From Rahnella victoriana (GTDB lineage Bacteria; Pseudomonadota; Gammaproteobacteria; Enterobacterales; Enterobacteriaceae): 64,000 bases of DNA. The DNA lies in NCBI RefSeq assembly GCF_004330295.1, contig NZ_SJOJ01000018.1:1-64000 (forward strand). Direction: 5' to 3'. Under the pieces are notes generated by a model that saw only the letters and a program-made list of their open reading frames with translations, was not told where the DNA came from and did no database searches. Positions 49,271 to 60,481 of the stretch are shown here, piece by piece. The stretch's first letter is position 1. The number at the start of each line of letters is the position of its first letter. The translations under genes and the position numbers were made by a program.

Positions 49271-49466
49271 ACTTCCTGAGCCGGAACGAAAAGTAGATTG
49301 GTATGAGGATGCTGAAATACTTTTGGCTTGTGGTTGTGATGTTGTGTTTGCAATTGTCTGGCAATCCGGACACGTAGCTTGAATGCTACAAACTTTTCAC
49401 TTCCTGTACATTACCCTGTCTGTCCAAAGTGATTTTTTAGCACCGCAATTTGCGGTGCTTTTTTTT
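49271..49466 (+). ncRNA. gcvB: GcvB small RNA
   Basis: GcvB, with Hfq, represses many amino-acid and peptide transporter mRNAs. It begins ACTTCCTGAGCCGGAACG and carries the G/U-rich R1 seed (TTGTGATGTTGTGTTTGC, about 49333-49350). The second conserved region ACTTCCTGTACATTACCC lies near 49400, and CTGTCTGTCC follows. A terminator stem agcaccgca / tgcggtgct with a T-run ends it at 49466. About 196 nt (E. coli about 205). Divergent from gcvA as in E. coli. Confidence 0.97.
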
Positions 49467-53871: not shown

Positions 53872-53948
<77 letters not shown>

Positions 53949-55533: not shown

Positions 55534-56859
55534 GTGAAGGAACGTAGTACTGAACTGGTTCAGGGATTTCGCCACTCAGTTCCCTATATTAATGCTCACC
55601 GTGGCAAAACATTCGTTGTAATGCTCGGTGGAGAAGCCATTGAACATGAGAACTTCAGCAACATTGTCAATGATATCGGACTGTTACACAGTTTAGGCAT
55701 CCGTCTGGTGGTGGTGTATGGCGCCCGCCCGCAGATTGATGAGAACCTTTCTGAGCATAATTACGAACCGATTTATCATAAAAACATTCGCGTCACCGAT
55801 GCCCGTGCTCTCGAACTGGTCAAGCAGGCAGCCGGCTTGTTACAGCTCGATATCACGGCGCGGCTCTCGATGAGTCTGAATAATACGCCACTGCAAGGCG
55901 CGCACATCAACGTGGTCAGCGGTAACTTTATCATCGCTCAGCCTTTGGGCGTCGATGACGGGATTGATTACTGCCACAGTGGCCGTATCCGCCGTATCGA
56001 TGAAGAAGCCATTCACCGTCAGCTCGACAGCAACGCCATTGTGTTGCTCGGCCCGGTAGCGGTTTCTGTCACGGGTGAAAGCTTCAACCTGACGTCGGAA
56101 GAAGTGGCGACGCAACTGGCGATTAAGCTGAAAGCGGAAAAAATGATCGGCTTCTGTTCTTCGCAGGGAGTGATCAACGAGGAAGGCAACATCATTTCCG
56201 AACTGTTCCCGAATGATGCACAGCTGCGAATCGACAAGATGGAATCCAGCGGAGATTATCTTTCCGGTACCGTGCGGTTCCTGCGTGGCGCGGTAAAAGC
56301 CTGCCGCAGCGGTGTCCGCCGCAGCCACCTGATCAGTTATCAGGAAGATGGCGCGCTGGTTCAGGAACTGTTCTCCCGCGACGGCATTGGTACGCAAATC
56401 GTGATGGAAAGTGCCGAACAAGTGCGCCGCGCCACAATCAATGATATTGGCGGCATCCTTGAGCTTATCCGGCCGCTGGAACAACAAGGTATTCTGGTGC
56501 GCCGTTCCCGCGAACAGCTGGAAATGGAAATCGATAAATTCACCATTATCGAGCGGGACAACCTGACCATTGCCTGCGCGGCGCTCTACCCGTTCCATGA
56601 TGAAGGGATCGGCGAAATGGCCTGCGTGGCGGTTCACCCGGATTACCGCAGTTCCTCACGCGGTGAAATGCTGCTGCAACGTGTTGCCAGCCAGGCGAAA
56701 CTGATGGGGCTGAACCGGCTGTTTGTCCTGACAACCCGCAGCATTCACTGGTTCCAGGAGCGCGGCTTCAAACCTGCGGAAGTGGATGTTCTGCCGATTC
56801 AGAAACAGGAAATGTACAACTACCAGCGTCGTTCAAAAATCCTGATTGCTGAACTCTAG
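55534..56859 (+). CDS. argA: Amino-acid N-acetyltransferase (N-acetylglutamate synthase)
   Basis: ArgA makes N-acetylglutamate, the first step of arginine synthesis, and is feedback inhibited by arginine. The 441-residue protein has an amino-acid-kinase-like domain (about 1-280, binds arginine) and a GNAT acetyltransferase domain with acetyl-CoA motif [17 protein letters not shown] near 369-385. The start is GTG with ACGAGG upstream. In E. coli recD follows; here a terminator and ptrA follow directly. Confidence 0.97.
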
Positions 56860-56884
56860 AAACCTGCAAACCATTCTTAAGCCG

Positions 56885-56916
56885 TAAAAAAGGACGCTCA
56901 TGTGTCCTTTTGTTTT
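56885..56916. terminator. Bidirectional terminator between argA and ptrA
   Basis: The stem AAAAGGAC / GTCCTTTT has poly-A before and GTTTTT after, so it stops both convergent genes. It occupies the place where recB-recD lie in E. coli. Confidence 0.85.
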
Positions 56917-56934
56917 TCCCTGAATATCATCAGG

Positions 56935-59826
56935 TTATCTAGCGGCGTGAGGCTCAAACGCCTGTTGCAACGTTGAGGTATCCGGCCAGGTTTTAAAGCC
57001 TGCAGGCGCGGCATATTGCGGCGTCTTGCTGTCATTCCCCGAAACCTGTGACAACATCGCCAGACCATCCTGTTGAATCACGGCCTGATGGAAGTAATCC
57101 GCCAGTTGAGTTTGTGTCAGCCCCGCAATCACCCGGATGACATTCGCACGGGTATCAAACTGAGGATTCCCGCGACTGAAGTCATTGCCAAGACGATCGG
57201 CTTCTTCATCTAAGGTCTGCGGACGCTGCTGCATTTCATTTACCAGTCCCTGCTTATATTGCAGGAACTCATCATCCTTCATCTCACGCAGACGCTTTTC
57301 AGCCTGCGGATAAAACGCCAGATAACGCTGATACAGATAATCGGGTTGCTTGCTGTTGCTTTGCAGCAGGAAACCAATCCCCCACTGCTTCCCGACCGGG
57401 ATAGGGAAAGCAAACACGGCATAGCCTAACTGTTCCTGTGTGCGAAGCTGACTGTAGAACCACGGCTGAATAATCTGCCCGAGCAGCGCGCTGTAGCCCA
57501 TGCTTTGTACTTCATCGTAACCGGTAGGTACATACACCGCCGCCAGCGCGGAGTCTGAACTGGTACCGACACGCTGGATATTGGCTTTGAGCGGCTCTGT
57601 GACTTCTGCCTGCTTACCCCGCCACCACTGCGTCCCGTGCGCACCCAGCTTTTGCATGATCTGCTGAGACATCGCCTTAACCTGATCAGCCGTCATATTG
57701 CCCACGACCATCACTTCCACGGCCGCATGATGAACCAGCTGTTCACGGTAAGCATTCACATCATCCAGCGTGATGGCGGAAACCAGCTTCTCACGCTCGC
57801 TGCGCTCGGTATAAGGCACGCGGGAAAGGAGCTGAACAGGTTGCAGCGCCAGTTCAAAGGCTTTGCCTTTGTCCGCCGACGCCAGCCGTTCCAGATACCA
57901 GGACTTGGCCTGATCAAGCTGTTCCTGAGTCGGTTTAAACTCGGGATAGTTATCCACCAGCGCCGCCAGTAAATCCGGCAGGCACTCGGTAAAACCGGTG
58001 GCGGTAAATTGCAGACCGTTGTCCGGCGAGGTCCCGAACGTGATCCCACCAATGGAGGCCTGATAGCTCAGCTGATCAAATGCCACGCCGGTGAGGTAAT
58101 CCGTCAGGCCATATAACACCTGATTTTTAGCCGTGCTGAGTGCCTGCTCATTGCGGAAGGACACCGTCACATTCGCCTTAGGCTCGTCAGCAAAATAACG
58201 GCTCGGCATGTAGAACACACGCAGCCCTTTATCTTCAACCAGTAACTCAGGTTTTGTCGCTTTGGAATCTTTGGTGACAAGCGCCAGAGAGTCCGGGATG
58301 TAAGGATTGAGCGCAGGCAAAGACAGCGAAATGCCATTCTCCAGCGTAGCCCATCGCTCAAACGTTTTTGGCGGCACCTTATCTGTCTCGTAAGGGGCAT
58401 TCACAAAGTACGCCACCTTATTGTGCGGCTCGTTCGGGCTGATGATCCAGTAACGCGCATTTTGTGGCGTCATTTCCGTCAGGCGAGATTCTATCGCTTT
58501 AGGATCATACTGGTCGGTCAGATAAGGCGAGTCGAGAACGTGTTCAACAGGCACGCGCAGCATGGTATCCACCAGCCATTCGACGTAATCCATATCGCGG
58601 GTTAGCGCCGGATAGCGGAAGTCGAGCGCCATGACATGTGCGATTTCATCAAAGTAGGATTTTTTTATGCCCTGCGCGCGGATCTCATTGAGGTAATTGA
58701 AAATAGCCGCAATAACGGTATCCCGTTCCGCCAGGCCTTTATCCGTTAGGGAAACGGATATATTGAATACACCCATATTGCGGTTAACCATCGGGTCAGC
58801 ACCTGCGCTGATCCCGTCGGCATACCCCTGTTTCTGCAACCAGTCAGACAAAGTGTTCGGGCTGCGGTTACCAATCAGGTAACTGATATAGGTATCCGTT
58901 TTACTGCGGAAATCTGCACTGTTGTTATCAATGGCAAATTCCACGCGCAGTTCTTTACGCGGCTGTGCGGGAACAAAGTGTATGAACTCACCTTTCTGCG
59001 CAGCGGTTAATGTCGGTACCGTTATCGCCGGTACTACCGCGTGATGATTGGCGATCTGCCCGAACGTTTCTGAGGCCAGATCAGCAAGCTCCGGCAGGGG
59101 TTTATTACTGTAAATCACGCCCACCATCAGATTGGCAGAATAGTAACGTTGATAGAACGCGGTCAGCTGGTCATGTAATTTACTGCCCGGCTTATCTTTC
59201 AATGTATCCAGATTACCACCGGAAAAACGGGCAGCCGGATGCGCGGGGTTTAAGGTTTCAGCACGAACCTGCGCCATGCGCATGCCGTCCCGCGAACGGG
59301 CCATTGTCAGTTCGGCGTTAACAGCATTACGTTCGCGGTCACCGTTGGCAGGATCCAGCAAAGGCTCACCGATGGCATCCGAAAGACGATCGACGGCTTC
59401 CGGCAAAGCGTCATTTTCCACCTCGAGATAGAACGCGGTGCGGTAAGACGCCGTGCTGCCGTTATGGCTGCCGCCATGTTTCTTCAGGAATTCTGACAGG
59501 CTTTCCGGCTGAGGATATTTCTTCGACCCCATCAGCAACATGTGCTCAGTATAATGGGCCAGACCCAGCTGAGAATCAGGGTCTTCCAGCGAGCCGACCG
59601 GGATAGCCAGTGCGGCGAGTGACTTGGGAGCTTGAGGATCAGACACCAGCAAGACTGTCATATCATTGGCCAGTTTGATGGCCTGATACTGACGCGGGTC
59701 GTTCTGACTTTTATTGATAGCTTGTGCGTATGGCTGCCATTCGGCTGCACCAGAGACAACAGGGGCCCAAAAGGTCAATAACAACAGTAACCCGTAAATT
59801 CGGGTAACCTGTTTCAACATTGCCAC
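56935..59826 (-). CDS. ptrA: Pitrilysin (protease III)
   Basis: PtrA is a periplasmic zinc protease that cuts small peptides and insulin-like substrates. The 963-residue M16 protein has a signal peptide (about 1-27, ending VSGA) and the inverted zinc motif HYTEH at 91-95. A further Glu ligand lies downstream, and the second, inactive half follows. In E. coli it is embedded in the recC-ptrA-recB-recD operon; here neither neighbour is a rec gene. Confidence 0.97.
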   Translation of the reverse strand: MAMLKQVTRIYGLLLLLTFWAPVVSGAAEWQPYAQAINKSQNDPRQYQAIKLANDMTVLLVSDPQAPKSLAALAIPVGSLEDPDSQLGLAHYTEHMLLMGSKKYPQPESLSEFLKKHGGSHNGSTASYRTAFYLEVENDALPEAVDRLSDAIGEPLLDPANGDRERNAVNAELTMARSRDGMRMAQVRAETLNPAHPAARFSGGNLDTLKDKPGSKLHDQLTAFYQRYYSANLMVGVIYSNKPLPELADLASETFGQIANHHAVVPAITVPTLTAAQKGEFIHFVPAQPRKELRVEFAIDNNSADFRSKTDTYISYLIGNRSPNTLSDWLQKQGYADGISAGADPMVNRNMGVFNISVSLTDKGLAERDTVIAAIFNYLNEIRAQGIKKSYFDEIAHVMALDFRYPALTRDMDYVEWLVDTMLRVPVEHVLDSPYLTDQYDPKAIESRLTEMTPQNARYWIISPNEPHNKVAYFVNAPYETDKVPPKTFERWATLENGISLSLPALNPYIPDSLALVTKDSKATKPELLVEDKGLRVFYMPSRYFADEPKANVTVSFRNEQALSTAKNQVLYGLTDYLTGVAFDQLSYQASIGGITFGTSPDNGLQFTATGFTECLPDLLAALVDNYPEFKPTQEQLDQAKSWYLERLASADKGKAFELALQPVQLLSRVPYTERSEREKLVSAITLDDVNAYREQLVHHAAVEVMVVGNMTADQVKAMSQQIMQKLGAHGTQWWRGKQAEVTEPLKANIQRVGTSSDSALAAVYVPTGYDEVQSMGYSALLGQIIQPWFYSQLRTQEQLGYAVFAFPIPVGKQWGIGFLLQSNSKQPDYLYQRYLAFYPQAEKRLREMKDDEFLQYKQGLVNEMQQRPQTLDEEADRLGNDFSRGNPQFDTRANVIRVIAGLTQTQLADYFHQAVIQQDGLAMLSQVSGNDSKTPQYAAPAGFKTWPDTSTLQQAFEPHAAR

Positions 59827-60130
59827 TCTCCCTCAATCGAATAAACGTGCCACACGGGCAATAAAATAAGCGGTTCAGTTATCCATGAACCTCAACCTGC
59901 CATTTTCTGCGGTTGACTCTGTTCAGACCCCGCCGGGACAGGATAGTTGTAAAAAATCCATCGGGCTGCCCTGTCTGAGATTTCATTCAACCCATGCCAT
60001 AAAGTCAAATGCTCCCGAGAGGGAAAAATCACCCTGTTAAACCACTCTAAGCTGTTAGCCCACCATTGCAAGGGGCTTAACGCTATTTTTGCCCTACATT
60101 TAGCGGTTCACCATCTCTTATTCTGAGAAG
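59827..60130. other. Intergenic region between ptrA and ppdC (position of recC in E. coli)
   Basis: About 304 bp with no reading frame that I can relate to RecC. It contains an inverted repeat GGTTCA-N8-TGAACC at 59872-59891, 46 bp before ptrA, which could be an operator. A short repeat AGCCC/GGGCT lies near 60058-60077. The ptrA promoter should be here, but I cannot assign hexamers with confidence. Confidence 0.5.
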
Positions 60131-60481
60131 TTATCTGCAGTAAAAGCGCTGCAACCCCGCCTGATATTTTGCAGGGGTTTGGACGACTACACTGACCAGC
60201 CCGCACGATTTTCCGGCGAAAGCATCAGACAGCTGATAATCCCAGCCTTTTGCCAAAATCTCTGCGCCCTTTCCTGTTACTGAACAGGCTTCAAGCTGTG
60301 AATGTGCATCTTCCCATGCCTGCTGAACCTGCCACTGACGCATAAATCCATAGGTCAGTACCTGGTAATAATTCAGTAATCCCAGCAGCGAAACGGACAG
60401 CAATAGCATCGCGATCAATACTTCCGCCATGCTGAATCCGTGCTGCGTTGCGTTGCGATTATTCATTGCAGATTCGCTCAT
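60131..60481 (-). CDS. ppdC: Prepilin-type minor pseudopilin PpdC
   Basis: A 116-residue type IV pilin-like protein. The prepilin peptidase site lies in HGFSMAEVLIAMLLL (Gly-Phe cut, Glu at +5), followed by a hydrophobic helix and a small C-terminal domain with paired cysteines. The exact start is uncertain (60481 or 60466). It overlaps ygdB. Its homologues are minor pseudopilins that can prime assembly of pili or secretion pseudopili. Confidence 0.85.
   Translation of the reverse strand: MSESAMNNRNATQHGFSMAEVLIAMLLLSVSLLGLLNYYQVLTYGFMRQWQVQQAWEDAHSQLEACSVTGKGAEILAKGWDYQLSDAFAGKSCGLVSVVVQTPAKYQAGLQRFYCR

Follow-up and report, generated by a model that had tools for sequence, protein, structure and literature searches.

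RecBCD is a housekeeping complex, and in Escherichia coli K-12 MG1655 its genes flank ptrA: recD and recB fill the argA-ptrA interval, and recC fills the interval from ptrA to ppdC. We describe the corresponding locus in Rahnella victoriana, contained in a 64,000-nucleotide stretch of contig NZ_SJOJ01000018.1 (assembly GCF_004330295.1; hereafter the window), where recC, recB and recD are absent on both sides of ptrA, together with a recC-recB-recD operon at another chromosomal site that very probably displaced them. The features of the old locus, in window coordinates, are as follows.

55534..56859, + strand: argA, a 441 amino acid (aa) open reading frame (ORF) with 86% identity to E. coli ArgA; left flank of scar 1
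56860..56934, no strand: scar 1, 75 bp in place of native recD and recB
56935..59826, - strand: ptrA (pitrilysin), 963 aa; kept between both scars
59827..60130, no strand: scar 2, 304 bp in place of native recC
60131..60481, - strand: ppdC-like minor pseudopilin gene, a 116 aa ORF; right flank of scar 2

An earlier reading of the window from its letters alone (the sequence-only reading) had reported gaps of 75 bp between argA and ptrA and 304 bp between ptrA and ppdC, with the RecBCD genes gone from both, and the coordinates and tblastn agree. The one terminator it placed between argA and ptrA is also recognizable by eye, as a terminator-like inverted repeat followed by T's at approximately 56886-56918 within scar 1. 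No ORF that reaches 80 aa begins inside scar 2. The window PtrA scores 1611.9 bits against the pitrilysin model NF011681 (cut-off 765), and the ppdC-like gene is identified by matching E. coli PpdC at 26% and by standing in the same position; beyond it, arranged as in E. coli, lie more pseudopilin-like ORFs and then thyA-like and lgt-like ORFs (labels based on their length, position and sequence). Across the genus ptrA is present in 14/14 genomes, the argA-ptrA gap measures 67-83 bp in 13 of the 14 loci (the remaining one, L052, gave no argA match), and the ptrA-ppdC gap, taken up to where the PtrA alignment begins, measures 230-304 bp in all 14. A tblastn search for remnants, using five native RecC/RecB/RecD sets against the ptrA loci of these 14 Rahnella genomes and of two genomes of a second genus of the family, g125, returned a best E value of 0.059, so that neither scar keeps a recognizable trace of the native genes. 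Because the gaps recur across the genus, and because ptrA and recC lie approximately 185 kb and 150 kb apart on one large contig in Rahnella G003 and G012 respectively, the misassembly at 56.9 or 59.9 kb that the sequence-only reading had allowed for is very unlikely.

The genome to which the window belongs (5.3 Mb in 85 contigs) contains one recC, one recB and one recD match over cut-off, all adjacent on contig C37, which is what the genome-wide search proposed in the sequence-only reading yields. They form an operon in the order recC-recB-recD (L009:7213-16408) with 4-bp overlaps, without ptrA and without internal stops in any of the three genes, encoding proteins of 1153, 1228 and 684 aa. 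Each exceeds its general NCBIfam cut-off (RecC, TIGR01450, 1099.3 versus 582.9 bits; RecB, TIGR00609, 1056.6 versus 696.05; RecD, TIGR01447, 582.2 versus 310.15), and the expected domains are all full length: Exonuc_V_gamma and RecC_C in RecC, UvrD-helicase and PDDEXK_1 in RecB, RecD_N and AAA_19 in RecD. Given this intact operon, the suggestion of a cell lacking RecBCD and relying on AddAB or RecFOR does not hold; the RecB of the operon falls far under the AddA cut-offs (113.5 versus 860.75 and 155.4 versus 707.65 bits), and the nine weaker recB-family matches in the genome lie in frames of 693-812 aa, with no further match in any frame above 812 aa, the AddA, AddB and AdnAB models themselves not having been run genome-wide.

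The three genes are contiguous in 9/9 mapped Rahnella regions (this genome and eight others), followed in each by the same major facilitator superfamily (MFS)-like and LysR-like genes, and an old-yellow-enzyme-like gene lies upstream, inside the flank examined, in six of the nine. The same contig carries at L009:1-3863, after an hsdS-like ORF and 3.3 kb upstream of recC, a 1082 aa putative hsdR-like type I restriction subunit; no hsdR-like ORF was found in the flanks examined around recC in the eight other Rahnella. Ratios of nonsynonymous to synonymous substitution rates (dN/dS) for the operon range between 0.06 and 0.13 in nine between-species comparisons, indicating purifying selection and therefore an operon that is maintained. 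Being intact and so selected, it most likely serves in double-strand-break repair.

The operon is not of the family's own type. Its RecC, RecB and RecD are 37, 41 and 44% identical to those of E. coli and 63, 57 and 60% identical to those of Variovorax J22P271, and RecC is only 35-37% identical to that of native genera, i.e. those retaining recBCD around ptrA; by contrast the Rahnella PtrA is typical of the family, at 69% identity to that of native genome G029. Composition differs as well, with an operon GC content of 60.5% versus 52.1% in the window and a third-position value (GC3) of 69-70% versus 59-62% for ptrA and argA. When the Rahnella RecC was searched against 98 genomes, other genera of the family reached at most 44% identity over long matches (one short fragment gave 52%), and closer matches (48-54%) came from other families of the order. 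In a scan of named RecC loci (best 80), the matches listed begin with four Rahnella (90-94%), followed by Variovorax, Azoarcus and Zoogloea (59-62%). The RecC-specific model NF008289 (PRK11069), with a cut-off of 1470 bits, is passed by E. coli (2129.2), G029 (1979.7) and G027 (1852.5), and missed by the RecC of this genome (856.7) and of g125 (887.4).

A concatenated RecCBD tree of 52 rows was built with support given by the Shimodaira-Hasegawa-like approximate likelihood ratio test (SH-aLRT). It took 34 of the 80 named loci, those left out being mostly Pseudomonas and including L089, L092, L107, L118 and L143, in which recB or recD is incomplete, and 16 of 20 other regions, the remaining four being further Rahnella. 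Rahnella groups with g125 (100), and the two together are sister to Variovorax plus a Burkholderiales metagenome-assembled genome (99) and lie inside a betaproteobacterial-type clade (98), while seven native rows stand apart on long branches with support of 100. Forcing Rahnella and g125 together with the native rows costs 135 log units in an approximately unbiased (AU) test on 28 of the 52 rows (p-AU 7e-58). Thiocapsa, a gammaproteobacterium (L085), also falls within the betaproteobacterial-type clade, and operons of this type may therefore move between classes more widely. As for carriage of the operon, the best plasmid match was 54.7% (Paraburkholderia), and of six phage records that matched, only one spans most of RecC, at 36%; neither vehicle was retained as a candidate. 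Some observations temper the foreign origin: the tree program flagged long branches and unlike composition among the rows, and part of the region just downstream of the operon is also approximately 60% GC. On balance we are confident that the whole RecBCD complex of Rahnella has been displaced by a xenologous one.

The operon recurs across the genus, and the family holds a second case. RecC of this type occurs at 89-95% identity in 13/13 other Rahnella genomes searched, hence in 14/14 with this one. Among 246 genomes of the family searched with the same RecC, 192 had a match at E <= 1e-100 and 54 had none, and the foreign type was present in five, three of them Rahnella and two g125 (G145 and G253, RecC 69%); after these five the score drops from 1780 to 623 bits, the remaining matches listed having 38-44% identity and the unlisted ones scoring lower again. 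Both g125 genomes have a contiguous recCBD and an argA that adjoins ptrA. The native order recC-ptrA-recB-recD beside argA was found in 6/6 native regions as well as in E. coli, and around recC in none of the nine Rahnella and neither of the two g125 regions. In a 31-row PtrA tree g125 joins G027, which has kept recBCD around ptrA, with support of 100/100, and a Rahnella plus g125 clade is rejected (p 2e-8). With g125 sister to G027 and not to Rahnella, this single gene tree, which is not a species tree, implies that native recBCD was lost twice. The g125 operon lies between a DEAD-box-helicase-like ORF (L178:3098-4471) and a 1701 aa ORF (L178:14672-19777; both described by eye), neighbours very unlike those in Rahnella.

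Whether the two genera acquired the operon separately is, with present sampling, finely balanced. A single gain within the family, with the operon later passing from one genus to the other, instead of two independent gains from donors of betaproteobacterial type, would explain why the two RecCBD sets are sisters (support 100, 67-69% identity) in hosts that are not sisters by PtrA; no intermediate is known, and the operon neighbours differ between the genera, so we rate this history at slightly under an even chance. Under either history the native genes were lost twice.

RecC reads Chi, and we compared the strand polarity of the Chi octamer GCTGGTGG between genomes with native and with swapped RecBCD. 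The sample comprised 20 stretches of 20 kb from each of five genomes (native G029 and G022; swapped Rahnella G003, Rahnella G012 and g125 G253) plus 200 kb of E. coli as a third native genome, the window's own genome lying outside it. Stretches were oriented by GC skew, and E. coli by its known origin and terminus. Leading/lagging counts of GCTGGTGG were 112/30 in G029, 75/11 in G022 and 35/9 in E. coli, and 45/24, 48/36 and 55/34 in G003, G012 and g125 G253, or 222/50 native versus 148/94 swapped when pooled (p 2.7e-7). Inside lagging-strand ORFs the counts were 50/34 native versus 20/65 swapped (p 2.3e-6), with p values of at least 0.12 for 13 control octamers, and because the difference persists there, the loss of polarity is not due to gene orientation.

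With gene strand controlled, GCTGGTGG is the most polar octamer in all three native genomes (first of 4242, 2752 and 1130), but stands only at 315/2892 in one Rahnella, 1022/2988 in the other and 169/3364 in g125; octamers below count thresholds of 20 to 50 were unranked, hence the short E. coli list. In an all-word contrast of native versus swapped genomes, which lists each word again as its complement, GCTGGTGG stands first of 6608 entries (z 3.9), and it is second of 6654 in the contrast with Rahnella alone; in native-native and Rahnella-Rahnella control contrasts its z values are -1.1 and 0.9. The top polar octamer in g125 is GCTGGCGG (z 5.6), which ranks 41, 510 and 575 in the natives. 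The most strand-polar octamers in pooled Rahnella are AGCAGGGC and GCAGGGCG, presumably resembling the FtsK orienting polar sequences (KOPS-like); with these as the top words, no clear candidate for a new Rahnella Chi appears among its polar octamers. The loss of polarity in the sampled genomes supports the prediction of the sequence-only reading that Chi use would be altered, and we lean, by a little, towards a changed Chi specificity of the incoming complex. That Rahnella and g125 dropped GCTGGTGG as Chi after the swap, g125 having moved to GCTGGCGG with GGTGGTGG also polar, we offer more tentatively, as a scenario with somewhat less than half the probability on its side.

Several results weigh against a change of Chi. 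Over-representation, the genome-wide measure that the sequence-only reading had put forward, does not separate the groups as polarity does: maximum-order Markov z values for GCTGGTGG are -0.5, 1.0 and -1.3 in swapped and -0.4 and 1.2 in native genomes, and whole-genome counts relative to the reversed pattern are 3.1-3.4 in four Rahnella, 4.1 in g125 and 3.1-5.3 in six natives. Pooled swapped genomes keep a weak GCTGGTGG polarity (z 2.4, rank 358/10604), as does g125 by itself (z 2.2), and in the contrast against g125 alone GCTGGTGG is 11th of 1684 (z 2.6). As the outcome of an unguided scan, first of 6608 is only a little above the extreme that so many words might yield; the strength of that contrast is in Chi having been named in advance. 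At 11 of the 12 RecC residues listed for Chi recognition the Rahnella protein is the same as E. coli, the two Rahnella have a weaker GC skew (0.027-0.029) than the natives (0.034-0.053), and Chi is reported in PMC8022716 to be undetectable in Yersinia and several Serratia, so that its signal can fade for other reasons. With only two swapped lineages set against three native genomes, the evidence is in any case suggestive and no proof.

The conserved Chi residues, the weaker Rahnella skew, the undetectable Chi of Yersinia and several Serratia and the weak polarity left in g125 give some footing to a displacement without any change of Chi, in which the weaker polarity of GCTGGTGG would stem from weaker strand asymmetry or from selection relaxed in some other way. 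Against it, AGCAGGGC and GCAGGGCG remain strongly polar in Rahnella; the skew of g125 (0.049) is as strong as that of natives, yet there GCTGGTGG is at rank 169 and GCTGGCGG at rank 1; and the native-versus-swapped contrast singles out GCTGGTGG. We regard an unchanged Chi as the lesser likelihood, at roughly one chance in three. Far weaker is a simple relocation, in which native recBCD moved together to the new site and then diverged: it would fit the one intact RecBCD found at one other site in the genus, its function presumably unchanged, and is made very improbable by a RecC nearer Variovorax than native genera, the AU test, the NF008289 cut-off that three native RecCs pass, the overlapping operon without ptrA, and a ptrA that is itself ordinary. 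The sequence-only reading had stated that an intact recBCD operon present elsewhere throughout the genus would reduce its claim to a relocation; the Rahnella genomes searched do carry such an operon, but what lies there is a divergent xenolog from outside the family and not the native genes.

Under whole-complex displacement, the Rahnella ancestor would have gained a complete betaproteobacterial-type recC-recB-recD operon at another chromosomal site, whereupon the native genes, recC on the upstream side of ptrA and recB-recD on the downstream side, would have turned redundant and been deleted as two separate intervals, with ptrA retained. The new enzyme would follow a Chi rule of its own when processing DNA ends and, because RecC reads Chi, most likely would not use GCTGGTGG as its main signal, so that selection for GCTGGTGG on the leading strand would have relaxed.

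Compared with enterobacterial RecBCD, the Rahnella complex shares the three subunits over the general curated cut-offs, the same domains and nearly all Chi residues; it differs in its low identity, in missing NF008289, in its locus and gene order, in RecC residue 40, which is N and not T as in E. coli, and in that GCTGGTGG ranks first in 3/3 natives and not in the two Rahnella. Within the 52-row set, the seven native rows have T, P or H at position 40; every row of Rahnella and g125 has N, as do the 30 other named rows without exception. Among the matches listed, the nearest outside the family are the recCBD of Variovorax, Azoarcus and Zoogloea (58-63% RecC identity), which form the sister or surrounding clade and have recC, recB and recD adjacent in the complete loci used, although their hosts belong to a different class (Betaproteobacteria); we know of no Chi for these enzymes. 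The RecBCD of Pseudomonas syringae Lz4W is of the same broad type and likewise has the recCBD order, and GCTGGCGC is its Chi, according to PMC5959072; Pseudomonas rows are only approximately 53-54% identical to Rahnella RecC. GCTGGCGC is the best GCTGG word in Rahnella (rank 18/7884), but it is polar in natives too (30/7434) and was set aside as the new Chi. That paper describes the twelve Chi residues as all well conserved in P. syringae, but at position 40 the six Pseudomonas rows used have N where E. coli has T, and the D137 given in the paper aligns with Q137 of E. coli RecC. Replacement of RecBCD by AddAB in some proteobacteria, attributed to horizontal transfer in PMC1193525, is alike in that a whole DNA-end-processing complex is exchanged, whereas in Rahnella one RecBCD supplants another.

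The same paper reports little horizontal transfer of recombination genes in a survey of 117 genomes, and PMC8022716, whose main text contains no mention of Rahnella, portrays Chi as well conserved in Enterobacteriaceae. In the Creative Commons (CC)-licensed PubMed Central (PMC) literature, a scope that most subscription papers fall outside, we found no paper on Rahnella with recBCD or recC and, judging by title and the start of the abstract, no report of such a swap among papers on RecBCD with horizontal transfer, ptrA or xenologs. A RecBCD swap in two genera of one family, accompanied by a loss of Chi bias, makes the coevolution of Chi and RecBCD directly testable, as well as the need for genome rewriting after the reader is replaced; should the switch of Chi be true, separate hosts sharing one type of enzyme would amount to a natural experiment on the way in which a genome re-evolves its many signal sites. 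Genetic work in Rahnella may find that E. coli Chi, or an inhibitor of the E. coli enzyme, does not behave as assumed.

Elsewhere in the window, the ppdC-like protein is 60-67% identical to its counterparts in the 13 other Rahnella genomes, with ArgA at 98-100% and PtrA at 92-95%, and is either fast-evolving or replaced. Positions 49271-49466 correspond to the GcvB RNA, and Rfam places a single tRNA at 53872-53945, where the mltA-amiC interval of E. coli carries three initiator tRNA genes.

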